From the NCBI GenBank assembly GCA_023248855.1, contig JAHFDS010000029.1:1-34554 (forward strand): a stretch of 34,554 bases of DNA, in the 5' to 3' direction. The notes beneath the pieces were generated by a model. It saw nothing but the letters and a program-made list of their open reading frames with translations, had not been told where the DNA came from and made no database searches. The position numbers and the translations under genes are program-made. Numbering within the stretch: position 1 is the stretch's first letter; each line of letters starts with the position of its first letter. The DNA comes from Myxococcales bacterium. GTDB lineage: Bacteria; Myxococcota_A; Polyangia; JAHFDS01. Shown here piece by piece: positions 424 to 12,684 of the stretch.

Positions 424-1938
424 TCAACGCTTTGCGGCGTCGAGCCCGAAGAACCGGCGGATGCGGGCGACGAGCACGCCCTGCGCCACGGCGAACGTGG
501 CGGCGGCGTCGCCTCCGGCCGAGTCCCGCGCTTGCTGCAGCTCCAGCTGGCGCCGCGCGACCGCGGCCGCGACCGCCTCGGCCACCTCGTTGCGCTGCAC
601 GAGGCGCTGGAAGCCGAGCTTGTCCAGCTCGTAGCACTCGAGCTCCGTCAGCGCGACCACCGTGGCCGCGCGTGGCACACCAGCGAGCAGCGACATCTCG
701 CCGAAGAAGCTCGGCGCGGTCAGCTCGGCCACCTTCTCCTTGGCATCGCCGACCGACAGCTTGACGCCCACCTTGCCGGCCGCGAGCACGTAGACCGAGT
801 GACCGGCGGCCCCCTCCTGCATGACGGTCTCGCCGCGGGAATAGGGCATGGGTCGCAGCTCGTCGGCCAGGGCGAGCAGGTCGTCCCAGGGCAGATCGGC
901 GAAGAGCTCGACCGACGCGAGGACGGCGGCGCGACGGTTGCGCTCGGACTGCCGTTCATTCACGCGGTCGGCCTCGGTCTGCTCGAGCAGGTGGATCGGG
1001 ATGGGCGGCGGCCACAGCGCGCCGAGGCGCGACAGCACGAAGTAGATGCGCGTGCGCACGACGCTGTCGGTCGAGACGAAGCGGCCGAGCTCGGTGAGCC
1101 AGTAGCGGACCTGGTAGCGTGCATGGTGCTCGCCGAGCTCGATGCACGTGCAGCTCGGCGGCTGCTCGGACGAGACCCGCGGCAGCTGCGAGCCGAGGGC
1201 CGCTTCGACCGCCTCGATCACCTGGGCCGGCGAGACCTTGAAGCTCGCCCGGAACTCGACGCGCCGGCGCCAGTTGCCGGCCCTGCCGCGGCGGCGGCCG
1301 ACCACGGTGACCTGACTCTTGCCGAGCAGCGCGTTCGGGACCAGCACCGTCTCGCCGTTCGGCGTCTCGACCGCGGTGTGGCGCCAGCTGATCTCGACGA
1401 CCCGTCCGAAGGTGTCCCCCATCCGGATCCACTCGCCGACGGCGATGGACCGGTCGAGCTGAAGGGCGAGCCCACCCATCACGTTGCCGAGGGTGTCCTG
1501 CAGCGCGAAGCCGATGACCGCGGTGGCGACCGCCGAGGTGGCGATGATGCCGGAGAGGTTGACCCCGGCGCGCCGGGCCACGCTGAGAAGGACGATGATC
1601 GACGCCACGCCGAGCAGCACGTCGCGCAGGATCCGCGGCGTCCTGACGCCGACGAGGGGCAAGAGGCGCCCGAAGAGCAGGCTGCCCGCGAGCCACACGA
1701 AGGCCAGGCCCGCGGAGCAGAGCGCGAGAAAGCTCGCATCGGGGTAGAGGGCGTGTTGCCGGCCGATGCCGGCGGCGAGGCCGACCGCCACGAGGTGCAC
1801 CCCGAGCAGCACGAAGGAGCCGATGAGCCCGCGCCGCTCGTCTCGCGCCGCCCGCTGCACGAGGAGCGCGGCGACCAGCGAGAAGCCCACGAGGCCCAAG
1901 GTGTGGTGGCGCTGGAGCTCGGCCCACAGCTGGTCCAT
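424..1938 (-). CDS. MscS-family mechanosensitive channel with C-terminal cyclic-nucleotide-binding domain
   Basis: This 504-aa protein starts with about five hydrophobic segments (roughly residues 15-150). The last resembles the MscS pore helix (SAVATAVIGFALQDTLGNVMGG). It is followed by the MscS beta domain (LQLDRSIAVGEWIRMGD, then ETPNGETVLVPNALL near residues 160-205) and a cytoplasmic region. From about residue 345 there is a cNMP-binding fold. It contains YSRGETVMQEG and a phosphate-binding cassette, FFGEMSLLAGVPRAATVVA, with the expected GE and R-A-A-T residues. Family knowledge: such channels gate ion or solute efflux on membrane tension and can be tuned by cyclic nucleotide. The gene diverges from the thiolase-like gene across 94 bp. 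ATG is the only reasonable start. Confidence 0.88.
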   Translation of the reverse strand: MDQLWAELQRHHTLGLVGFSLVAALLVQRAARDERRGLIGSFVLLGVHLVAVGLAAGIGRQHALYPDASFLALCSAGLAFVWLAGSLLFGRLLPLVGVRTPRILRDVLLGVASIIVLLSVARRAGVNLSGIIATSAVATAVIGFALQDTLGNVMGGLALQLDRSIAVGEWIRMGDTFGRVVEISWRHTAVETPNGETVLVPNALLGKSQVTVVGRRRGRAGNWRRRVEFRASFKVSPAQVIEAVEAALGSQLPRVSSEQPPSCTCIELGEHHARYQVRYWLTELGRFVSTDSVVRTRIYFVLSRLGALWPPPIPIHLLEQTEADRVNERQSERNRRAAVLASVELFADLPWDDLLALADELRPMPYSRGETVMQEGAAGHSVYVLAAGKVGVKLSVGDAKEKVAELTAPSFFGEMSLLAGVPRAATVVALTELECYELDKLGFQRLVQRNEVAEAVAAAVARRQLELQQARDSAGGDAAATFAVAQGVLVARIRRFFGLDAAKR

Positions 1939-2032
1939 CGCACTTCACGGTACCACGGGGCGGGTCGGTGCCGGCGCACGCTCCCAGAGCCACGTTTGGG
2001 CCGCATGGCGGCCTGCGATAAGCTGATTGCGC

Positions 2033-3769
2033 ATGCGCACCCGTCGCGCCGTCTACGTGGTCGACGCGGCCCTGCAGGACGGGCCGATCACCGACCGCCC
2101 CACCGCCACGCTCGACCAGCAGTGCCTCGAGGCGGCTCGCAGGCTGGTCGGGGACCAGCCGACCCTGCGCAGCGGCATCGAGGCCGTCTACTTCGGCACG
2201 ATGGGCGTCTTCCGCGGGGTCGCCTGTGCGCGCCTCGCACCCGCGCACATCCCGAACCAGCTGCGTCGGGAGCTCGGTCTCGACGGCCTGCGTGGCAGCG
2301 GCTACCACACCTATCTGTCGACCTCCGAGTCCGGGGCGGTGGCCCTCATCAAGGCGTTCCAGGACCTCGCGGACGGGCGCTTCGAGACCGTGCTCGTCGT
2401 CGCCGGCGAGCAGATGTTCTCGCTCGATCCAGCGCAGCGCGCCGACGATCGCGCCGACATCGCGCACTGGATCCGCTCGGTCGTGGATCCGGTCGAGGCC
2501 GATCGGTATGGCCTATCCATGCCCTGGATCGGCAACCTCTTGTTCGATCACCAGCTCTGGCACTCGGGTCTTTCGCCGGCGCTGTGGCGCGACGTCATCG
2601 AGACCGCGACCCTCGACAAGTACGAGTGGAGCCACCTCTATCCAGCCACCATGCAGGGCGCCAAGGAGCTCGCTCAGCCGGCCTCGACGGTCACCGCGGC
2701 GCGCTACCGCGACGACGCCCGGGACCCGTGGGTGACACCCCACTTCCGCCGTGACGATCTGTGCGCCAACGCCAACGGTGCGACGGCGATCGTGCTCTCG
2801 ACTGCGGCCTCGATCGTGGGTCGGGCCCGCCGCAAGGTGCGGATCGTCGGCATGGGAGAGGGCCACACCTCGATCGCTCTCGCGGGGCGAGGCGGCCCCC
2901 TTGCCAGGCCCTCGAGCATCCGGCGCGCCCTGCGCGAGCTCTGCACCGACGCGGCCATCGATCCCGCGATGCTGTGGGACGATCGCCCGGGCGCCCCGAC
3001 CGCCGGCATCTACCACGACGCGTTTCCATCGATCGAGCTCGCGTTCCTGTACGAGATCGCGCGGCTCGCCGAGCCCGACGACACCCAACGCTGGCGCTGG
3101 GTGTGTGAGCGCTTCGTGCGCAGCTGGTCGAACCCGCTCGGCGGACTGTGCGCGAGCGGCCACGCTCTCGGGAACTCGGGCCTGTTCCAGGTCGCGAAGG
3201 CGTTCCATAGCCTGGCCCGGGACACCCGCTACCTGCGCCTCGGCGATCCGACGCTGGCCGCCTACGAGGCCGCGATGGGGGCCAAACAATACCTCGTGAC
3301 CAGCGTGGGCTCGGCGCTGACCAACGTCATCGCGACGTTGCTGGTAGACGAGGACGACCTCGCGTCGCGCGAGCGGCTGGTCGAGGCCGAGCGTCGCCAT
3401 GCCCCCGGCGAGGTCGATCACGCCTTCGCACGCGAGGCCGTGGAGGCGCGCTTCGCGGAAGCGGCGTGCGCGCCCGGAGAGGGCGTGGTGCTCGGCGCCA
3501 CGCGGGTGCGCGGGGAGAGTGGTCCAGCCTGGGCGTACCTCGTGCAGGCGGGCGCCGGCACTCGGCTCGCTCTCGGCCCCGCGAGCGCAGTCGAGCCCTA
3601 CCCGGTCGGGTCGCGGGTCGGGTTCATCGTGCGCGACGCACGGACGGAGCTGGCCGGGATGCAGGGCATCGCGGTGCCGGCTCCGATCGCGGAGCCTTCG
3701 GTCGAGCGGGCCGTGCGAGCCGCCCTCGACGCCGCGCGCAGCGGGCGGTTGCGGCGCCGCTTCGAGTGA
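2033..3769 (+). CDS. Thiolase-family protein with C-terminal OB-like domain; nucleophile position is Ser
   Basis: The protein has about 578 aa from ATG 2033; the track uses TTG 2027, two codons earlier. The fold is thiolase-like. An SESG stretch (about residues 98-101) followed by a Gly-Glu-Gln-Met segment corresponds to the CxSG...GxExM region. NPLGGLCASGHALGNSG (His about 377) matches the second thiolase active-site loop. Where catalytic thiolases carry the acylated Cys in CxSG, this protein has Ser. The last 110 or so residues (GEGVVLGATRVRG through YPVGSRVGFIVRD) look like an OB-fold acyl-CoA-associated domain. It may be a non-condensing thiolase homologue, an acyl binder, or an enzyme using another nucleophile. 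It converges with mutH, leaving a 27-bp gap. Confidence 0.75.
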   Translation: MRTRRAVYVVDAALQDGPITDRPTATLDQQCLEAARRLVGDQPTLRSGIEAVYFGTMGVFRGVACARLAPAHIPNQLRRELGLDGLRGSGYHTYLSTSESGAVALIKAFQDLADGRFETVLVVAGEQMFSLDPAQRADDRADIAHWIRSVVDPVEADRYGLSMPWIGNLLFDHQLWHSGLSPALWRDVIETATLDKYEWSHLYPATMQGAKELAQPASTVTAARYRDDARDPWVTPHFRRDDLCANANGATAIVLSTAASIVGRARRKVRIVGMGEGHTSIALAGRGGPLARPSSIRRALRELCTDAAIDPAMLWDDRPGAPTAGIYHDAFPSIELAFLYEIARLAEPDDTQRWRWVCERFVRSWSNPLGGLCASGHALGNSGLFQVAKAFHSLARDTRYLRLGDPTLAAYEAAMGAKQYLVTSVGSALTNVIATLLVDEDDLASRERLVEAERRHAPGEVDHAFAREAVEARFAEAACAPGEGVVLGATRVRGESGPAWAYLVQAGAGTRLALGPASAVEPYPVGSRVGFIVRDARTELAGMQGIAVPAPIAEPSVERAVRAALDAARSGRLRRRFE

Positions 3770-3796
3770 GTCGCACGAGGCTTCGGAGCTGGTCGA

Positions 3797-4507
3797 TCAG
3801 CCGCGCGTACGCGTGCCGGTGACGAACGCGCGCGCGATGAGCGCGCCCGTGAACGACGTGCGCAGGTAGAAGCCACGCGGGAGCGACAGGATCGGGCCGC
3901 CCTCTTCGTCAGCCGAGAGGCGCCGTGCTTGCCCGTGCGCCGCCTTGGGTCGAACCTGGACCACTTCGCCAAGGTGCGCCGTCACGTCGTCGATGCGACC
4001 CGAGCCGATCAGGCCCTGGAAGAGCGCGTGGTCCGAGCTCAGCCGCGCTTCTTCCTCGGGCGACGGGCTCCAGAGCAGTGGCGCGCCCACTGGGCGGTCG
4101 GAGAGCGGCAGCTCCGGCAGCGCGAGCACGGGCACCCATAACACGCGCGCGATCTTGGCGCGCAAGCGTGAGCCGAGCCAGGAGGTGCGGACCAGCTCGT
4201 CAGGGTGCAGGGAGCACACGAAGGTGGTCTCGCGCGGCCGGCCGCGCCGGTCCACCGGGAGGGTCTTGAGCTCGACGCCCAGGGTCGCGAAGTCAGGTCC
4301 CGGGCGCGACCCCGCGTCGGCCCCGAGCGCGGCCTCGAGGAGCGCGCCGACGAACCCCTTCGCCCGTCGCTGGTCTGGCGCGACCTCGCGCCCGAGCCAG
4401 GCGGCGAGCTGTCCGATGGTGCAGCCGGCGAGCGCATCAGCACGGGCCAGCAGCTCACTCTCGGTGCGCGGGACAGGGGGCCGGCTGGATTGTTGCGAGC
4501 GCTGCAT
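3797..4507 (-). CDS. mutH: MutH, methyl-directed mismatch repair endonuclease
   Basis: The 236-aa protein is close in length to E. coli MutH (229 aa) and collinear with it. The metal-binding core is intact: Glu58 in GALLEAALGA, Asp72 in DFATLGVELK, Glu79 and Lys81. These correspond to E. coli E56, D70, E77 and K79. VDRRGRPRETTFVC, ARVLWVPV, GAPLLWSPS, QVRPKAA and LPRGFYLRTSFTGALIARAF follow in order, the last two covering the GATC-reading and methyl-sensing region. Family role: MutS/MutL-activated nicking of the unmethylated strand at hemimethylated GATC. No dam, mutS or mutL is in the window. MutH is mainly known from Gammaproteobacteria, so horizontal acquisition is a fair suspicion. GGGGG lies a few bases before the ATG as a possible ribosome site. 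Confidence 0.95.
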   Translation of the reverse strand: MQRSQQSSRPPVPRTESELLARADALAGCTIGQLAAWLGREVAPDQRRAKGFVGALLEAALGADAGSRPGPDFATLGVELKTLPVDRRGRPRETTFVCSLHPDELVRTSWLGSRLRAKIARVLWVPVLALPELPLSDRPVGAPLLWSPSPEEEARLSSDHALFQGLIGSGRIDDVTAHLGEVVQVRPKAAHGQARRLSADEEGGPILSLPRGFYLRTSFTGALIARAFVTGTRTRG

Positions 4508-4579
4508 GGTGCCCCCGCCGCCTCGGGGGTGGGTGGGTTCGTATCACGCACCCCTGACAGGGACCGCCTCGCGCCGGCC

Positions 4580-4596
4580 AGCGCCCCAATGGCGCT
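4580..4596. other. Short inverted repeat upstream of mutH
   Basis: AGCGCC and GGCGCT form a perfect 6-bp stem around a CCAAT loop, about 75 bp upstream of the mutH ATG. Two direct copies of CAATCGCAA lie just beside it at 4598-4606 and 4626-4634, 28 bp apart. Together they are the only recognisable symmetry in the mutH leader and could be an operator. No convincing -35/-10 pair was found, so the role is open. Confidence 0.3.
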
Positions 4597-4669
4597 GCAA
4601 TCGCAAATCGACGCCCCTCGGCCGCCAATCGCAAGGGGAGGGGGCCCGTGAGGACTTGTCCGAACGGGG

Positions 4670-4690
4670 AGGGGATGCTCGGCATCCCCT
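4670..4690. terminator. Perfect 9-bp hairpin, distal member of a tandem pair after the rhodanese gene
   Basis: AGGGGATGC and GCATCCCCT pair perfectly over 9 bp with a 3-nt loop. On the minus strand it lies about 34 nt past the rhodanese stop codon and only 3 nt beyond the next hairpin. No T-run follows on either strand, so it is not a textbook intrinsic terminator. An RNA-protecting 3' hairpin or a terminator aided by a second hairpin is as likely. Confidence 0.5.
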
Positions 4691-4693
4691 ATG

Positions 4694-4715
4694 CGGCCGC
4701 CTTCCGAGGCGGCCG
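4694..4715. terminator. Perfect 9-bp hairpin immediately after the rhodanese stop
   Basis: CGGCCGCCT and AGGCGGCCG pair over 9 bp around a 4-nt loop (TCCG on plus, CGGA on minus). In the minus-strand transcript it starts 8 nt after the rhodanese TAG stop and is followed 3 nt later by the second hairpin. The stem is all G:C but for one pair. Position argues for transcription termination or 3'-end protection between the rhodanese gene and mutH. The missing U-tract lowers certainty. Confidence 0.55.
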
Positions 4716-4723
4716 ATCGGAAA

Positions 4724-5239
4724 CTAGTTCGGCAGCTCGGTCGCGAGCTTGCTCGTGCCGCCGCCGGCCGCTTGCCACCCGTCGTATCCACCGGCGAGCA
4801 CCTCGACAGCCTCGATGCCGTCGCCGAGCAGGTGCTCGCCCGCGTAGCTGGCGCGGGTGCCGTCCTGGCAGTACAGCACCACGGGGCGTCCATCGGCACG
4901 CAGCTCCGCCAGCTGCACGAGCAGGCTCGCGATCGGCCAGGACCGTGCCCCCGGGATCATGCCGTGCGCGGCTTCCACGGGTTCGCGAACGTCGATGATC
5001 AGCACTCGCTCGCGCCGCTCGATGCGATCGCGCAGCGCCGCCACGGTCACGAGCGGCGCCTTGCGGCCCATCGGCCGGGGTGCCCGGCTGGCCACCGGTG
5101 CGGGGCGCGGGGCTGCATCGAGCTGCTCCGCCATGCCCTGAGCCAATCGCCGGATGAGCCTGATCGGACCCAGCTCCGGCGCCGGCAGGCCGGCCAGCGC
5201 CCGCAGGCCGCGCGCGATGCGCTTTTTCGCGTCGAACAT
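4724..5239 (-). CDS. Rhodanese-domain protein
   Basis: I place the start at ATG 5239 (MFDAKKRIARG, 171 aa). A GGTGGAGG ribosome site sits 8 nt before it; the track's upstream GTG would overlap that site. The first 60 residues are basic and Pro/Ala-rich. A single rhodanese fold follows: VLIIDVREPVEAAHGMIPGA, then the active-site loop VLYCQDGTRAS with catalytic Cys at about residue 124, then EVLAGGYDGW near the end. Family role: transfer of sulfane sulfur through a Cys-persulfide. The loop CxxGxR fits a sulfurtransferase more than a phosphatase. The natural acceptor is not visible. Two hairpins follow its stop. Confidence 0.88.
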   Translation of the reverse strand: MFDAKKRIARGLRALAGLPAPELGPIRLIRRLAQGMAEQLDAAPRPAPVASRAPRPMGRKAPLVTVAALRDRIERRERVLIIDVREPVEAAHGMIPGARSWPIASLLVQLAELRADGRPVVLYCQDGTRASYAGEHLLGDGIEAVEVLAGGYDGWQAAGGGTSKLATELPN

Positions 5240-5295
5240 CGAATGAACCTCCACCGGCGCGGAATGTAGTGACGTCGGCCGCAGCGATCAACCCC

Positions 5296-5562
5296 TCAGG
5301 TTCCCTTCTTTCGCCGGAGGATCCGGGCCAGCTCGCTTCGCCCCACGCGCATGGCGCCGGCGGCCTCCGCCACCCGGGCGAGCTCGACCGGCAGGTCGTA
5401 GTGCTCGCGATCTGTCCCTGCCAGGTGGAGCGCGCGCACGGGAAGACCGGCTCGCAGCGCGAACGCCGCCAGCTCGATCCGCCCGGGTTCGCCCGCGAGG
5501 TCGGACAGGAGATGCGAGGTGGCGCGGCGACCCCAGCGCACCGGGGGATCCATCACGATCAT
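5296..5562 (-). CDS. DUF4031-family small protein
   Basis: The 88-aa protein fits the DUF4031 pattern: a short N-terminal beta strand (MIVMDPPV), a Trp-Gly-Arg segment, SHLLSDLAGEPGRIELAAFALRAGL, then a His-Tyr-Asp-Leu motif and a helical end with AMRVGRSELARIL. DUF4031 proteins are small and of unknown biochemical role. The start lies only 6 nt after the stop of the D-amino-acid deaminase-like gene, so it is probably translated from the same mRNA. It is complete for the family. Confidence 0.7.
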   Translation of the reverse strand: MIVMDPPVRWGRRATSHLLSDLAGEPGRIELAAFALRAGLPVRALHLAGTDREHYDLPVELARVAEAAGAMRVGRSELARILRRKKGT

Positions 5563-5568
5563 GTCCGC

Positions 5569-6783
5569 CTACGCGAAGGCATGGCCCAGCCCTCGATAGG
5601 TGCGCGTGCGCCCGACCGGCTGGTCGCCGCGCACGAGCAGGTACTCGCCGAAGTGCTCGGCGAGCTCCCCCCCCTTGGCGTGGCGGAAGAACACGGGATC
5701 GCCGGGGCGCAGGGCGCGCGCGGCAGCGCCGCGGACCGGCGTCTGCACCTCCCCCGCGCCCTCGAGCGGTACCAGACGGAGGCCGCGCGGCAGGTACGGC
5801 AGCGGGAGGCGGTCCGCGCCAGCCGCCCCCGAAGCCACGTAGCCGCCGCCGTGGCAGGTCACGACGCCGCGGGTGGGCGTGCGCGCGACCTGGAGCGCGA
5901 ACAGGGCGGCAGGCACGAGCGAGAGGCCACGGTAGTAGTCGAAGAGGTGGCTGGCCAGAAAGCCCGAGCCGGCCGTGGTCTCGCTCACCCAGGGCTCACG
6001 CGCGGTCTCGAGAAGCGAGCCGGTCCCCCCGCCGTTGAAGAGCGGCGCCGGTAGCCCTGCGCGAACGAGCGCCTCCGCGACGGCCCTTCGCCTGGCCGAT
6101 ACGGCCCGGATGGAGGCGCGTCGGATGGCAGCCCGCAACGGGTTGGTCGCACGCGAGAACGGGCTCTGGTCCGGCAAGCCCGCCACCTGGGCCTCGTAAC
6201 CCATGATCCCCCCGAAGGCGAGCCCCGGCGTGTCGTTCGCTGCGCGGGCGAGGGCCACCACCTCCTCGGGGCTCCGCACCGGGCTCCGCAAGACGCCCAG
6301 GTGGGCACCGAGCACGCGCAGGGACAGATCGAGCTCCACCACCACGCGCACGCGCACGCCGCGCGCCCGCGCCGCCCGCGCCAGGGGATCCATCTGTGCA
6401 GGCGAATCGATCACCGCGGCCACCCGGACGCCCCTTTCGGCCAGCTCGACCAGCGTCGTCACGTCCGCCGCCTGCGCGCTCGGGTACGCCACGAGCAGGT
6501 CGCCAAAGCCTCGGTCCGCGAGCAAGCGCGCCTCGCGCGCCGAGTAGCACATCACGCCCGAGATGCGCGCGCCCCCGCGCGCGCAGATGGCCTCGAGCAG
6601 CGCGGGGCAGCGCACCGACTTCGACGCCACCCGCAGGGTCTGCCCCGGTCGCACGCGCGAGAGCAGCCGATCCACGTTGGTCTCGAGCGCGTCGAGATCG
6701 CACAGCGCCAGCGGCAGTGGCTCGCCGGCGATCGCGCGGCAGTAGCGCGCGTACTCGGGCCAGGCCGCGGGCCTCACGAGCAC
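5569..6783 (-). CDS. PLP-dependent amino acid deaminase/aldolase (D-serine dehydratase/D-threonine aldolase-like)
   Basis: The track ORF begins at 6927, but its first 48 residues are Arg/Ser-rich and overlap the hydrolase gene. I prefer GTG 6783 (or GTG 6777), just after that gene's stop, giving about 404 aa. The N-terminal half is an alanine-racemase-type barrel: LCDLDALETNVDRL, then LRVASKSVR with the PLP Lys, SGVMCYSAREARLLADRG, LLVAYPSAQ, and GGGTGSL for the phosphate cup. The C-terminal half is the D-Ser-dehydratase-like barrel with VTCHGGGYVASG, whose His is a metal-ligand candidate, and FFRHAKGGELAEHF. Family chemistry: metal-assisted, PLP-dependent breakdown of D-amino acids such as D-Ser or D-Thr. 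Substrate is not predictable here. Confidence 0.82.
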   Translation of the reverse strand: MLVRPAAWPEYARYCRAIAGEPLPLALCDLDALETNVDRLLSRVRPGQTLRVASKSVRCPALLEAICARGGARISGVMCYSAREARLLADRGFGDLLVAYPSAQAADVTTLVELAERGVRVAAVIDSPAQMDPLARAARARGVRVRVVVELDLSLRVLGAHLGVLRSPVRSPEEVVALARAANDTPGLAFGGIMGYEAQVAGLPDQSPFSRATNPLRAAIRRASIRAVSARRRAVAEALVRAGLPAPLFNGGGTGSLLETAREPWVSETTAGSGFLASHLFDYYRGLSLVPAALFALQVARTPTRGVVTCHGGGYVASGAAGADRLPLPYLPRGLRLVPLEGAGEVQTPVRGAAARALRPGDPVFFRHAKGGELAEHFGEYLLVRGDQPVGRTRTYRGLGHAFA

Positions 6784-6787
6784 CGGT

Positions 6788-8809
6788 TCACTCGCACGGG
6801 GCGTCCTCGGCCCCGGAGGCGACCACGACCGGCACCTCTGCCGCCGCGAGCGCCCGCAGGAAGCAGCGGATCTGACGCTTGGGCGAGGCGGTCTGGAACA
6901 CCACCTCGTGACCGTCCTCGACGCCATCCTCTCGTTGCTGCACCACGATCGCCGTCGCGCCTCCGGCGTTGCCGCGCGCGGGCAGCGCGAGCCTTTGCCG
7001 CCCCGAGAAGTCGAGCACGCGCTCGATCGCGTCGAACCCGGCGAGCTCGGGCGTGCTCGCGTCGAGCGCGTCGCCGCCGACGTCGAGCCCCGCGGACAGC
7101 GTGGTCGCGTTGGCGATCGCGGGCAGGATGTAGTGATCGACGATGCCCTGCACCATGAGGACGTGCCTCGGGCTCGCGCCGCGCGTGATCGCCGGCGCGT
7201 ACACCGGTGGATCGGCCGATTCGCCGGCCCATTGCAGGAGCATGAGCTCGATGTCGTGGGGGCCGAGCTCGTGCCCGACCAGCGCCTCGGCGAAGCCGCG
7301 CACCGCGAGGGGCTTCTGCTTGAAGAGGACGTTCTCGATCCAGCTCCCGCCTGCCCCCGACAGCAACAGGGCCTTGAAGCGAGGCTCGGCGGCCATCGCG
7401 AGGGGGGCGATGGTGGCGCCCATCGAGTGGCCCATGAGCGCCAGCCGCTCAGCGTCGAATCGCACCATCGTCGACGCTGGCGGCGGCGCGGACGCGCTCC
7501 GAGGACAATCGGAGGCGTCGACCGTCACGCCCTCGAGGACGTGCGCCGCGAGCGCGAGCTCGAGCGCCGACTGCCGCACGTTGTCGCGCATCGCCACGGG
7601 GTTGAGCACGTTGAAGATGAGCAGCTGCTCGTCCATGTGGGAGACGTTGCGCAGGCCGCCGTGCGGACCGTCGATGCTCGCGCCCGCCCAGCCCGCCTGG
7701 GCGAACGTGCGCGCGAGCCCGCTGCCCGGCACCCTCACGCGCCCGGTCGCGTCGCGGACGCCCCGGTCCACGAGGGGGCGTTCGCCGCCGCCGCCGGTCC
7801 TCGAGAACACGACGAGCGGCAGCGGCCCCGAGCCGCGCGCGCGCGGCACCGTCACGACGACGTTCGCTCGCTCGTGCCCCTGCAGCAGGGGTGCGCCGTC
7901 GGGTCCTGGCACCCAGTCGCCGCCCTCGCTCTGATAGGGCGGTGTGCCGCGCTGGTAAACCGGCATCGCGATCGTGCCCGCGTAGACGCAGTAGTCGTCG
8001 AACACCTCGCCCCGCCGGAGCGGGTCCTCGGGCGTCGGCACGCGCGCCAGCGCCGCCCGGACGGCACGCTCGAGCACAACCGTCGGCCGCCAGGTGCGGA
8101 ACACCGTGAGGCCCGCGATCTGCGCGCGGTCCACGCCCATCTCTCCCAGCGCCGCGATCGCGTCCCGGTACGCCGAGAACGCGGCCTCCGACATCCCCGC
8201 GGGCCGCTGGCCCGAGACCAGTGCCGCGATCGCGGAGGGCCGCCCGACCGGGGCGCCTGCCGTGTCGCGCAGGGTGCGGAAAGCGACAGCCGCGTACGTG
8301 GTGTCCGGCTCCAGCGGCAAGCCCTGATACGGCAGGAGCGCGAGCGCGTGCCGCGCCGCGGGGCCGCGAAACTCCGGGGCCGCGGCCAGGACGGGATGCC
8401 GCCTGCCGTACACCGGCGAGCTCCGGTCGACGGCGACCAGCCACACCGGAGAGTCGCCGCGCGTGCTGGCGTGTGGATCGGGTAGCGCCCGCGCGTCGAT
8501 CGCGGCGCTCGTCGGCAGGTAAATCGTCGAGGTCAGCCCGAAGCCGTCGGCGTCGGCCAGGATGGCCAGCATCTGCGCAACGATGTCTCGCGGGTCGGTC
8601 GCGAGCCCCTCGAGCGTCACGCGGCCGTCCGCGCGTCGTCGGGTCTCGGAGGGCAGGGGCGTGGCCCAGAACGGCGCGCCTTCGGCGAGCTCGAATTTGA
8701 AGATCGTGCCCGCGTCGTCGCGCGCAGGCACGGGCTGCGGGCTGGTGGGCGCGCGCTCGCCACAGGCCAGCAGGGCGCAGATGGTGAGGCCGGCCGGGGA
8801 TGCTCTCAC
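6788..8809 (-). CDS. Predicted lipoprotein, large alpha/beta-hydrolase
   Basis: The 673-aa protein starts at a GTG that overlaps the preceding gene's TGA (GTGA), showing translational coupling. The N-terminus is a short lipoprotein signal ending in ALLAC. The first 300 residues are of unknown fold. An alpha/beta-hydrolase follows: LPLVVFSRTGGGG (oxyanion side), nucleophile elbow GHSMGATIAP with Ser, acid candidate Asp in GIVDHYI, and His in EDGHEVVFQ. It is predicted to face the periplasm or cell surface and hydrolyse an ester, lipid or polymer; the substrate is unknown. It ends 4 nt before the proposed deaminase start. Confidence 0.78.
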   Translation of the reverse strand: MRASPAGLTICALLACGERAPTSPQPVPARDDAGTIFKFELAEGAPFWATPLPSETRRRADGRVTLEGLATDPRDIVAQMLAILADADGFGLTSTIYLPTSAAIDARALPDPHASTRGDSPVWLVAVDRSSPVYGRRHPVLAAAPEFRGPAARHALALLPYQGLPLEPDTTYAAVAFRTLRDTAGAPVGRPSAIAALVSGQRPAGMSEAAFSAYRDAIAALGEMGVDRAQIAGLTVFRTWRPTVVLERAVRAALARVPTPEDPLRRGEVFDDYCVYAGTIAMPVYQRGTPPYQSEGGDWVPGPDGAPLLQGHERANVVVTVPRARGSGPLPLVVFSRTGGGGERPLVDRGVRDATGRVRVPGSGLARTFAQAGWAGASIDGPHGGLRNVSHMDEQLLIFNVLNPVAMRDNVRQSALELALAAHVLEGVTVDASDCPRSASAPPPASTMVRFDAERLALMGHSMGATIAPLAMAAEPRFKALLLSGAGGSWIENVLFKQKPLAVRGFAEALVGHELGPHDIELMLLQWAGESADPPVYAPAITRGASPRHVLMVQGIVDHYILPAIANATTLSAGLDVGGDALDASTPELAGFDAIERVLDFSGRQRLALPARGNAGGATAIVVQQREDGVEDGHEVVFQTASPKRQIRCFLRALAAAEVPVVVASGAEDAPCE

Positions 8810-9303
8810 TGGATCTCTGCGCAGAGCTGTGGCCGCACGTCGAGGCCGACCCGCTCCGAGAGGCTCCTTTCCGAGAGCCCCTGGCCGATGATCGCGAGGG
8901 TCCGGTTCACGTCACCCCAGTCGGACACGACGACCACCGCGTTCATCGCGTCGGCCTCGCACGCCGTGTCGTATGTGAAGGCGACCCAGCTCGCGATGTC
9001 GCGCCTTTGCGGCTGGATGACGTCGTAGTAGAGCTGTGTGAGCGCGCGTCCTCGGCTCGTGGTCGGCGGCGAGGGCGGCACGTCCATCTCCCAGTGCGAC
9101 CCGTTGCCCACCACCAGCACGGCCGAGTCGGTGCAGCCGCGCTCGACGCGGTAGCCGCCCTGGTCCCCCGCCAGCGACCACTCGGCCACGGTGCCCGTCA
9201 CCGCCTTGCCGCACGTGGCGTCGTCCTCGACGTCGCAGCCCGAAAGCGCCACGCATGCGGAGATGCAGAGGAGTCTGGCCGCCGGTAGCGTCCCCCGGCG
9301 CAT
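8806..9303 (-). CDS. Predicted lipoprotein of unknown function
   Basis: The track ORF (322 aa from 9774) is too long. The real start is ATG 9303, which overlaps the upstream gene's TGA (TGATG), giving 165 aa. The N-terminus has a hydrophobic stretch and lipobox ALSGC. The mature part has six further Cys residues including CGK, RGCTDS and the terminal QLCAEIQ, which suggests disulfide bonds in the periplasm. YYDVIQPQRRDIASWVAFTYD and NAVVVVSDWGDVNRTLAII are the most structured-looking stretches. I recognise no family. Its end overlaps the hydrolase start by four bases, so the three genes are translated as a unit. Confidence 0.75.
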   Translation of the reverse strand: MRRGTLPAARLLCISACVALSGCDVEDDATCGKAVTGTVAEWSLAGDQGGYRVERGCTDSAVLVVGNGSHWEMDVPPSPPTTSRGRALTQLYYDVIQPQRRDIASWVAFTYDTACEADAMNAVVVVSDWGDVNRTLAIIGQGLSERSLSERVGLDVRPQLCAEIQ

Positions 9304-9737
9304 CACTGCACCCGCTTGACGACGTGCCAGCCGTATCGCGTGCGCACGACACCGGTCTCGCCGACGGCGAGGCGCAACGAGAGCTTGAGGAACTTCGGCT
9401 CGTAGGGCATCCCCGGTTCCACCGGGTACCCCTCGCCGGTTCTGGCGGTGGCCGCGTCGCTCGAGTGCGCCGCCATCAGGGGCTCGATGGCCTCGCCTGC
9501 GCGGAGCTTTCCGAGCACGCTGCGGGTGAGGATCACGGCGTCGGCCTCGCTCCGTGCTTTCGCCGCCTCGTCGAGCCCCTGCTTGTAGGCGCGGGCGAGC
9601 TCGCCCCACGCGACCAGGACCTGCTTGATCTCGACCTTGTCGGCCGCCTGGGCGCGGTCGAGAACGTCGATCGTGGTGAGAGGGTCCGCGGTCGCGCACC
9701 CGAGCGCGATCGCGGCGCCGACCAGGAGCGCTCGCAT
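9303..9737 (-). CDS. Short parvulin-like (PpiC) lipoprotein
   Basis: The 144-aa protein begins MRALLVGAAIALGCAT, a short lipoprotein signal with lipobox ALGC. A helical segment (residues 30-80) leads into the end of a PpiC-type rotamase domain: LSLRLAVGETGVVRTRYGWHVVKRVQ, matching the family's conserved C-terminal 'G-x-H' strand. A full parvulin domain is about 90 residues, so this one is short and may lack part of the catalytic face. Known homologues fold outer-membrane or secreted proteins. It is first in the coupled run down to the DUF4031 gene and may assist folding of the two lipoproteins encoded next. That last point is inference. Confidence 0.68.
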   Translation of the reverse strand: MRALLVGAAIALGCATADPLTTIDVLDRAQAADKVEIKQVLVAWGELARAYKQGLDEAAKARSEADAVILTRSVLGKLRAGEAIEPLMAAHSSDAATARTGEGYPVEPGMPYEPKFLKLSLRLAVGETGVVRTRYGWHVVKRVQ

Positions 9738-9804
9738 GAAGCGAGATTACGGCGCCCGTCCCCGAGTTGCTCATCGAAACGCCAGGCAGGCGCCTTGTGT
9801 TGGG

Positions 9805-11751
9805 TCAGGGGTTGGTCTTCTCGCGCATGGCGAGGATGATGCGGCGGAAGGTCCGGCCGAGCATGTCGGCGAGGACGCGGCACGGGATGACGGCCTCCTC
9901 CATGGCCGGCTCGTCCGCGGCCTCGCCGTACACCACCGCGACCACGCGGTCGTCGAGCCGCACCGGTACCAGGATGGCGTGGTCCGCGGGGCCCCCCATC
10001 GCGTCCACGAGCGGCTGGTTCTGCGCGGACTCGTCGATGCGGCCGAGGTGGATGGCGCCCTGGGAGACCGCAAGGAACGGGCTCGGAACGTCGAGGGGAA
10101 CGGCGAGCGCATCGAAGGCCTCTCGCACGATGCCGGGGCCGCCCGCGCGCCAACCGGCCACCTGTCCCCGCTGCACGCGGAAGATGGCGGCGCGATCGAA
10201 CCAGCGCAGGAGCTGCCCGAGCGCGACGGGGCCGATCCCATCGCGGTCGGCGACCCCATCGAGCTGTGCCTGCAGCGACGACGTGAGCTCGTCGAGATCC
10301 AGTCTGGGTGGGCCGGTTTCCACGAGCTCGGGCGCGCCGTCGTCCGCCGTCCGCGCGCCCGCCGCCTCGAGGGTCGCGCCGCTCGAATCGACGAGCAGCG
10401 GCTCGAGCGGCGACTCGATCGGGGCGCTGACCGCGCCGCTCAAGGGGTCCGGTGGCGCGTCAGAACGAGGCTCCTCCGACATCACGTAGTCGGCGAGCAG
10501 CAGATTCAGGCCGAGGTCCTTGGCGGGCTCAGGCTCCGCGGCAAGGCTCTGGCGCTCCGGGACGGACGGCGGCGGCGGCGTCTCGACACGGGCGAGGTAG
10601 TCGCGCAGGTAGTCGTCGAGCGCAGGCGCAGCGGGCGGCGGTGCGGCTGCAGTGGGCGGCGCGGCGGCCGGCACCGCGATCGCGGGTGGCGGCGGGGCCA
10701 GATCGATCGGGGGCGTGCGCGGCGGGGTCAGGGCCGGCGGCCGGGCTCCTGGTGTTGGGCTCGGCACCGCGGGGTCGAGCTCGATGGGGCCGCGTATCGC
10801 CTGTGGCTGCGGCGTTCGCGTGGAGATCCGGCTCGGGCGGGCCACCCCAGTCGGGACCATCTGGGGCGTGGGCGCGGCCGGTCGGGGCGGCGAGCTCTCG
10901 CGCCCGCGGACGGCCGGTCGCGCGCCCGAGGCTCGCAGATCCTGCTCGGTGGGCACCCCGTCGGACGCGCACTTCTCGAGCAGGGCGGCGTAGTCCATGG
11001 GCAGCCTTTGCCCCGTCTCGAAGGTGATGCGCATCTGCCCGGGCACCGTCAGCTCACCGCCGGCGCCGATCTCCGGCGGCCTCAGGCTCGACACCGCGCC
11101 GAGGACGCGGATCCTCGCGCCCGACGGCATCCTGAAGTGCACGAAGAGTCTCGTCGCGACGCGCTCGACCCGGGGGCCCGTCACGAGCGCGCAGCCGGTG
11201 CGCGACAGGAACGCGCTCTGGCACAGAAAGTGGCGCTCGCTGACCGGACCGACGAAGGTCTCGCAACGCGCCTCGAGCTGGAACGCGTAGCTCGGCTCGT
11301 GCCTGGCCGCTCGAGCGGCCACCGGCGCCGCCTGGGCGCGCGGCACGGCCACCTGCACGGGCTCGACGCGCGCGAGCGACTGGCTCGGTGCGGCGGGGGG
11401 CTCCAGCTCGAGCGAGAGGCTCCTCGCACGTTCGGCCTTCTCGTGACCCGGCACCAGCACGCGCTGCAGCTTCTCCGGGAGCTGCCCGCGCCAGGACACC
11501 TGCATGACCCCCGGTTGTGAGATGCGCCCCCCTGTCACCTGGATCGGCGGCAGGCTGCGATCGACCGCGCACTTGCCCACGACCGTCGTGCCATCCCCGA
11601 GGTGCATCACGATCTCGAGCTGCGAGCCCTCGGGCTCGACGCCGTTCGACGACAGCGTGCAGCCGAACAGCGAGGCGTTCGAGGCGAACGCTGCGCGCTC
11701 CTTCCCTCCCGGGAGGCGGAACTTCACCGAGACACGTGCCTCCGCCGCCAT
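9805..11751 (-). CDS. PilZ-like / Pro-rich / GAF-like regulatory protein
   Basis: The 648-aa cytoplasmic protein has three parts. Residues 1-240 hold two beta-rich modules that look PilZ-like. The first keeps NASLFG, an NxSxxG motif, but I see no clear RxxxR. The second has LSRTG without the Asn. Residues about 260-400 are a Pro/Ala-rich linker. Residues about 500-648 resemble the GAF-like domain common in myxobacterial regulators (LLRWFDRAAIFRVQRGQVAGW, then DHAILVPVRLDDRVVAVVYGE). If PilZ holds, it could bind c-di-GMP. The missing RxxxR argues for a degenerate or protein-binding version. It lies 57 bp after the epoxide-hydrolase gene's start on the same strand. No partner kinase is adjacent. 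Confidence 0.6.
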   Translation of the reverse strand: MAAEARVSVKFRLPGGKERAAFASNASLFGCTLSSNGVEPEGSQLEIVMHLGDGTTVVGKCAVDRSLPPIQVTGGRISQPGVMQVSWRGQLPEKLQRVLVPGHEKAERARSLSLELEPPAAPSQSLARVEPVQVAVPRAQAAPVAARAARHEPSYAFQLEARCETFVGPVSERHFLCQSAFLSRTGCALVTGPRVERVATRLFVHFRMPSGARIRVLGAVSSLRPPEIGAGGELTVPGQMRITFETGQRLPMDYAALLEKCASDGVPTEQDLRASGARPAVRGRESSPPRPAAPTPQMVPTGVARPSRISTRTPQPQAIRGPIELDPAVPSPTPGARPPALTPPRTPPIDLAPPPPAIAVPAAAPPTAAAPPPAAPALDDYLRDYLARVETPPPPSVPERQSLAAEPEPAKDLGLNLLLADYVMSEEPRSDAPPDPLSGAVSAPIESPLEPLLVDSSGATLEAAGARTADDGAPELVETGPPRLDLDELTSSLQAQLDGVADRDGIGPVALGQLLRWFDRAAIFRVQRGQVAGWRAGGPGIVREAFDALAVPLDVPSPFLAVSQGAIHLGRIDESAQNQPLVDAMGGPADHAILVPVRLDDRVVAVVYGEAADEPAMEEAVIPCRVLADMLGRTFRRIILAMREKTNP

Positions 11752-11808
11752 GAAGCCTGGATCTTACGTCGGCACGGCGCGCCCCGGAAGATTCGGTGGC
11801 GCGATGGG

Positions 11809-12684
11809 TCAGCCGCCTTCGCGCGCCGGGTGGCGCGCGAGCCAGTCGAGCACTCGCGCGGCCACGCGATCGGGCGCCTCGAGCTGCAGGAAATGCCCGA
11901 CCCCCAGGAGCTGCTCACTCTGGAAGGGTCCCGTGAAGAATCGCTCCTGACCACGCGAGGCGGCTGGCCCGATGCAGCCGTCGTCGTGTCCGCACAGGTG
12001 CAGCGTCGGCACCCGAATGGAGCCTGCGCCGCTCTGGCTTCGGGCGCGCGCACGCGCCGCGCGCGGGGGCCGCCTCATCGCGCGGTAGTAGCCGAGGGGC
12101 GCCGGCATGCTCTGGCGGAGGCACGCCTTGAGCGCGCGCATGGCGGCCGGATCGGGCAGGTAGCCCGGGGACCAGCGGCTCCACAGACGCTCGACGAACG
12201 CGAAGTCGTGTGCCGAAACGACGCGATCCGAGAGGCCGCGCAGCTGGAAGAACGCCACGTACCAGCTACGCAGGAGCTGGGCGGGCTGCCGGACCGCATT
12301 CTCGAGGAAGGCCAGAAGGTGCGGCATCGCGAGCGTCACCGCGGCGGAGAACCGTTCGGGGGAGCGCGCCACGGCGGCGTACGTCGCGACGGCACCCCAG
12401 TCGTGTCCGACGATCGCGACGGGCTTGCAGGGTGCCAGCGTGTCTGCGATCGCGATCACGTCGGAGGCGAGCGTGTGGACGTCGTAGGGGCCACTCGCCA
12501 CCGACGGGGCGTAGCCGCGCATCCACGGCACGACGACATGGTAGCCGGCACACGCGAGTCGGTCGGCGAGCGGCACGAAGCTCGGGGGATGGTCGGGGAA
12601 TCCATGCAGGCACAGCACGAGTGGCGCGTCGTCGGCCCCCGCTTCGAGCGCCTCGAACGCCCCCGTTCGTGTCTGGATCCGCAC
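11809..12684 (-). CDS. Epoxide hydrolase-like alpha/beta-hydrolase
   Basis: The 291-aa protein matches the epoxide hydrolase/haloalkane dehalogenase branch. LCLHGFPDHPPSF is the oxyanion loop and VGHDWGAVATY is the elbow with an Asp nucleophile. GHDDGCIGP carries the charge-relay acid, and GVGHFLQLEAPDRVA holds the catalytic His. The cap region (residues about 135-215) contains a short Arg/Ala-rich patch with RAARARAR, unusual for the family. The N-terminus has no signal, so it is cytoplasmic. It sits between the vWA lipoprotein (28 bp) and the PilZ-like gene on the same strand. The exact substrate cannot be read from sequence. Confidence 0.85.
   Translation of the reverse strand: MRIQTRTGAFEALEAGADDAPLVLCLHGFPDHPPSFVPLADRLACAGYHVVVPWMRGYAPSVASGPYDVHTLASDVIAIADTLAPCKPVAIVGHDWGAVATYAAVARSPERFSAAVTLAMPHLLAFLENAVRQPAQLLRSWYVAFFQLRGLSDRVVSAHDFAFVERLWSRWSPGYLPDPAAMRALKACLRQSMPAPLGYYRAMRRPPRAARARARSQSGAGSIRVPTLHLCGHDDGCIGPAASRGQERFFTGPFQSEQLLGVGHFLQLEAPDRVAARVLDWLARHPAREGG

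Follow-up and report, generated by a model that had tools for sequence, protein, structure and literature searches.

A full-length MutH homologue in a Myxococcota genome and the co-occurrence of MutH with endonuclease-motif MutL among its relatives

The mutH gene and its product

The window, the whole stretch of 34,554 nucleotides analysed here, belongs to a draft genome of the phylum Myxococcota and carries a mutH coding sequence at positions 3797..4507 on the minus strand. The gene begins with ATG, encodes 236 amino acids and was delineated from its open reading frame and from the matches of its product to PF02976, NF003458 and the structure of E. coli MutH (PDB 1azo). MutH is the enzyme which nicks new DNA strands at GATC during mismatch repair. 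The Pfam profile search gave an E-value of 2.6e-26 for PF02976, above the cut-off; the score against NF003458, the NCBIfam equivalog for MutH, was 254 bits (cut-off 243) and that against TIGR02248 was 212 bits, slightly below the cut-off of 229.9. Residues 11-229 align without a gap to E. coli MutH (1azo; E-value 4.8e-61), with 106 of the 219 columns (48%) identical, and the 236 residues form one domain, as is characteristic of MutH proteins, which consist of a single domain of about 220-230 residues.

The alignment with E. coli MutH (PDB 1azo, 2azo) was used to assess the key residues. The catalytic stretch D72-(x)6-E79-x-K81, equivalent to D70, E77 and K79 of E. coli, is encoded at 4265..4294, the triplet R186-P187-K188 (E. 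coli R184-P185-K186) at 3944..3952 and Y214 (E. coli Y212) at 3866..3868, all on the minus strand. On the basis of published structures, R184-P185-K186 of the E. coli enzyme are taken here to read GATC and Y212 to sense methylation, and the roles in catalysis and GATC reading assumed for all the residues checked have the same source. The equivalents of E. coli K48, E56, D70, E77, K79, F94, K116, R184, P185, K186 and Y212 are all retained, so that the original prediction, according to which the catalytic and the GATC-reading residues are present and ungapped, holds for the 11 residues checked. The same residues are shared with MutH of Haemophilus influenzae (PDB 2aoq, 2aor), a member of the same family (E-value 7e-52), and the D-(x)6-E-x-K stretch is invariant in all the 74 Myxococcota MutH sequences inspected. 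The match is far beyond chance and, as judged from sequence, the product is a bona fide full-length MutH, which is predicted to be activated by MutL and to nick the unmethylated strand of hemimethylated GATC sites. The gene by itself is ordinary and adds one MutH to the known family.

Surroundings of mutH

mutH closes a run of minus-strand genes, and the gene on its other side is convergent to it. The next gene upstream on the same strand (4724..5254, minus strand) encodes a rhodanese domain (PF00581), and the run also contains an alanine-racemase-like gene (5569-6927, minus strand). The convergent gene (2027..3769, plus strand) encodes a thiolase-like protein of 580 amino acids, which matches no Pfam family and NCBIfam thiolase domains only weakly. 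Neither the rhodanese-domain gene nor the thiolase-like gene was found near MutH in the relatives by neighbourhood comparison, and neither is thought to be functionally linked with mutH. Eight window genes in all were compared with the MutH loci of the relatives; one match near MutH was obtained, for a channel gene (424-1938) in L041, and none for the other seven, with no further conserved neighbour. The open reading frames recurring at the MutH loci of the relatives are antisense shadows of mutH. The original prediction had placed MutH at the end of an unrelated gene run and without dam, mutS or mutL nearby, and both observations were confirmed, the neighbours not being conserved with MutH in the relatives, though dam and mutS are present elsewhere in the same draft.

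The channel gene, located on the minus strand, encodes a fusion of a mechanosensitive-channel beta domain and a cyclic-nucleotide-binding domain, the latter also matching the profiles of Pycsar effectors. This domain accounts for the only padloc matches among the window genes tried, and MutH itself matched no defence family among the padloc profiles. No methylase gene adjoins mutH among the genes annotated at 424-12684. The window contains 277 GATC sites (8.0 per kb), 0.95 of the expected number, and GATC is not avoided.

Dam and MutS1 in the host genome and the search for MutL

The 8.44-Mb draft of the host genome (G000) comprises 724 contigs and is estimated to be 96.9% complete and 5.5% contaminated; its fragmentation and the contamination estimate make mis-binned contigs possible. 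It contains one MutH, one D12 methylase and MutS1, identified by profile search with PF01624 (E-value 5.7e-45). The search of the full genome for Dam, proposed as a check of the original prediction, identified this D12 methylase as Dam, encoded on a contig other than that of mutH, with a score of 174 bits against TIGR00571 (cut-off 114.85). Its closest solved structure is E. coli Dam and it retains the motifs LKWAGGK, GYNGLCRxNxxGEFNVPFGRY and DPPY, its GATC-reading residues being like those of the E. coli enzyme and the specificity for GATC being judged by motif only. The neighbours of dam were found by inspection to resemble a hydrolase and a glycosyltransferase, with no restriction gene adjoining, and Dam is therefore regarded as an orphan. 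In the possession of Dam and MutS1 together with MutH, the host genome is similar to E. coli with its Dam-directed repair.

MutL was not found in the 96.9%-complete draft: neither TIGR00585 nor a profile specific to the class, built from 14 of its MutL N-terminal domains, retrieved it (best E-value 0.006). An oversight due to a poor model is disfavoured, since the class-specific profile also finds none in this genome. A clear MutL is absent from 17 of the 318 genomes of the class including the host, and the rates are equal in genomes with MutH (9 of 157) and without it (8 of 161); the absence therefore looks like draft incompleteness unlinked to MutH. It may alternatively be considered that the host truly lacks MutL, and that its MutH is activated by another partner or cuts unmethylated GATC alone. 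The failure of both the searches would agree with such a state, as would G157, a genome rated 99% complete in which MutH is present and MutL was likewise not found; however, the distribution of the absences is that which draft gaps would give and MutS1 is kept in the host, making a host devoid of MutL improbable. An assembly gap is the likeliest explanation for the missing MutL.

Distribution and phylogeny of MutH

The original prediction regarded MutH as mainly a gammaproteobacterial trait and thus as an oddity in the present genome, and a 2021 review likewise describes methyl-directed repair as restricted to a few gammaproteobacteria (PMC8744996). The genome survey does not uphold this premise. 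MutH was identified in 157 of the 318 genomes of the host class, representing 74 of 152 genera, and in about a third of the genomes sampled across the phylum (129 of 379, of which about a dozen and a half outside the class rest on weak or partial matches). Almost all the MutH carriers of the class have a single copy. In the phylogenetic tree, the window MutH is placed among the members of the class, without a settled position among them, and its nearest relative is MutH of G211 from the same class (57% identity, as compared to about 53% for the gammaproteobacterial sequences). The gammaproteobacterial MutH sequences constitute one group (support 92/98), and the window MutH lies outside it. The distribution and the tree indicate that MutH is native to and common in the Myxococcota and that the premise of oddity is wrong. 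Together with the Dam of the host, the tree essentially provides the picture of a Myxococcota-native MutH clade accompanied by Dam, which was named in the original prediction as one that would remove the novelty. No earlier report of MutH in myxobacteria was found in a literature search limited to open-licence papers.

Three Myxococcota MutH sequences (L041, L197 and L229) were observed inside the gammaproteobacterial group, which suggests that MutH may have been transferred between the two lineages; the tree, being unrooted, gives no direction of transfer. Such inter-phylum transfer, along with the contamination estimate of 5.5% for the draft, would be compatible with a recent horizontal gain of the window gene from the Gammaproteobacteria or with its location on a contaminating contig. 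Against this, the window MutH falls outside the gammaproteobacterial group, is closer to that of G211 than to the gammaproteobacterial sequences and resides in a window whose GC content of 70.4% resembles that of the other pieces of the host genome (71-75%); recent transfer is disfavoured, and either such origin of the gene is very unlikely. Still less credence is given to the view that the window MutH is a GATC nuclease of the Sau3AI type serving in restriction or defence. The fold and family in common with Sau3AI, its GATC target and a weak match to the Sau3AI profile (NF040973; E-value 6e-6) are outweighed by a score of only 25 bits (cut-off 300), by a single domain of 236 amino acids as opposed to two MutH-like domains in about 475 amino acids (a model of 475 positions), by the lack of a defence family match, of an adjoining cognate methylase and of conserved neighbours in the relatives, and by the single MutH copy found in almost every MutH-bearing genome of the class.

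D12 methylases were found in 291 of the 318 class genomes, and the only MutH carriers without one at an E-value of 1e-3 are G026, G036 and G131. In G025, G026 and G027 (families f5 and f6; MutH loci L194-L196), the D12 methylase match is either lacking or a trace, and MutL of G025 and G027 (loci L179 and L170), the two inspected, has no endonuclease motif. SeqA (PF03925) was found in none of the 318 class genomes; Dam and MutH of the class occur without this hemimethylated-GATC binder, which accompanies them in E. coli.

The endonuclease motif of MutL in the relatives

MutH-bearing organisms are described in the 2021 review as possessing a MutL without the endonuclease domain or motif (PMC8744996). 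The motif was scored in MutL of 114 class genomes (loci L084-L113, L145-L189 and L230-L269), a sample biased towards high-scoring MutL, for which the proportions are rough. It is intact in 54 and absent in 14 of the 68 MutH-bearing genomes, while among the genomes without MutH it is present in 39 and absent in 7. The ACH and CPHGR motifs nearly always accompany it, and in the motif-less MutL of the MutH-bearing genomes all three are absent together in the alignment; the absences are therefore considered to be real losses. Thus, MutH occurs together with an endonuclease-motif MutL in most of the relatives surveyed, and this pattern, at the level of the predicted proteins, contradicts the published rule (PMC8744996).

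The C-terminal domain of MutL from the MutH-bearing genome G261 matches the endonuclease domains of Neisseria gonorrhoeae MutL (PDB 3ncv; E-value 1.1e-31) and Bacillus subtilis MutL (PDB 3gab; E-value 8.2e-24) and retains the DQHA(X)2E, ACH and CPHGRP motifs; the motif-less MutL of G174 matches the two domains far more weakly. At the position of the final acidic residue in the published motif, D(Q/M)HA(X)2E(X)4E, MutL of the class frequently carries D, H or T, and its nuclease activity is therefore referred to as predicted. B. subtilis is not known to possess a MutH. N. gonorrhoeae is described as lacking it (PMC2965676), and unlike these two organisms, Myxococcota genomes such as G261 hold both MutH and an endonuclease-motif MutL. 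The comparison with E. coli reveals other differences, which apply equally to H. influenzae: E. coli MutL lacks the endonuclease motif that most MutH-bearing relatives keep, and the present host belongs to the phylum Myxococcota, to a class without SeqA, and has a draft genome without a detected MutL.

The active site is kept in each of the 74 Myxococcota MutH sequences inspected, many of which come from the genomes surveyed for MutL, and hence neither MutH nor the MutL nuclease looks abandoned. Contamination as the source of the pairing was rejected, since the pairing is present in genomes of one or two contigs (G264, G279-G281, G298-G300, G315 and G316). A second, nuclease-dead MutL was also considered for the genomes with both nucleases and was not seen; there is one MutL per genome in the 35 genomes searched in depth, and the apparent second matches represent one gene split at the linker. 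The motif state requires 8 changes on the MutL tree, at least 4 of them on well-supported branches, and the independent pairs available for relating motif loss to the presence of MutH are few. MutL is motif-less and MutH absent in family f17 (L155, L171, L172, L181 and L183), G057 (L159) and G072 (L086), and thus neither known type of repair nickase was seen in these genomes.

Probable role of MutH in mismatch repair

The window gene is, with considerable confidence, the native housekeeping MutH of the host, likely to function in Dam-directed mismatch repair as in E. coli. The original prediction had left a choice between GATC-directed repair and nicking in a defence or restriction-like system; the former is the better alternative, given the MutS1 and the orphan Dam encoded in the same genome, and the latter found no support. 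In the proposed pathway, the solitary Dam would methylate GATC sites in the host, and after replication a mismatch would be found by MutS, which would recruit MutL. MutL, the gene for which is missing from the draft most likely owing to an assembly gap, would activate MutH, which in turn would nick the daughter strand, still unmethylated, at a hemimethylated GATC in the vicinity; excision would begin at this nick. In the relatives with both nuclease sites, MutH probably provides the strand choice or the first nick and MutL the added nicks.

More tentatively, much of the Myxococcota may use two nickases simultaneously, with MutH setting the strand at hemimethylated GATC and an endonuclease-competent MutL adding nicks, a possibility worth considering although the balance lies somewhat against it. 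For the species represented by the window, such an arrangement amounts to a prediction about an unseen mutL.

These results point to MutH as native to a second, large phylum. The wider pattern, in which MutH and an endonuclease-motif MutL occur in one genome, is the part that deserves specialist attention and experiments. The use of two nickases, if true, would break the taught either/or split between MutH and endonuclease MutL, and would represent a state from which the nuclease-dead MutL of the E. coli type arose more than once. The Myxococcota, in which most carriers possess the MutL motif, SeqA is lacking and several motif losses have occurred, constitute a natural test series for examining in what way methylation-based strand choice and MutL nicking work together, and how one may substitute for the other.
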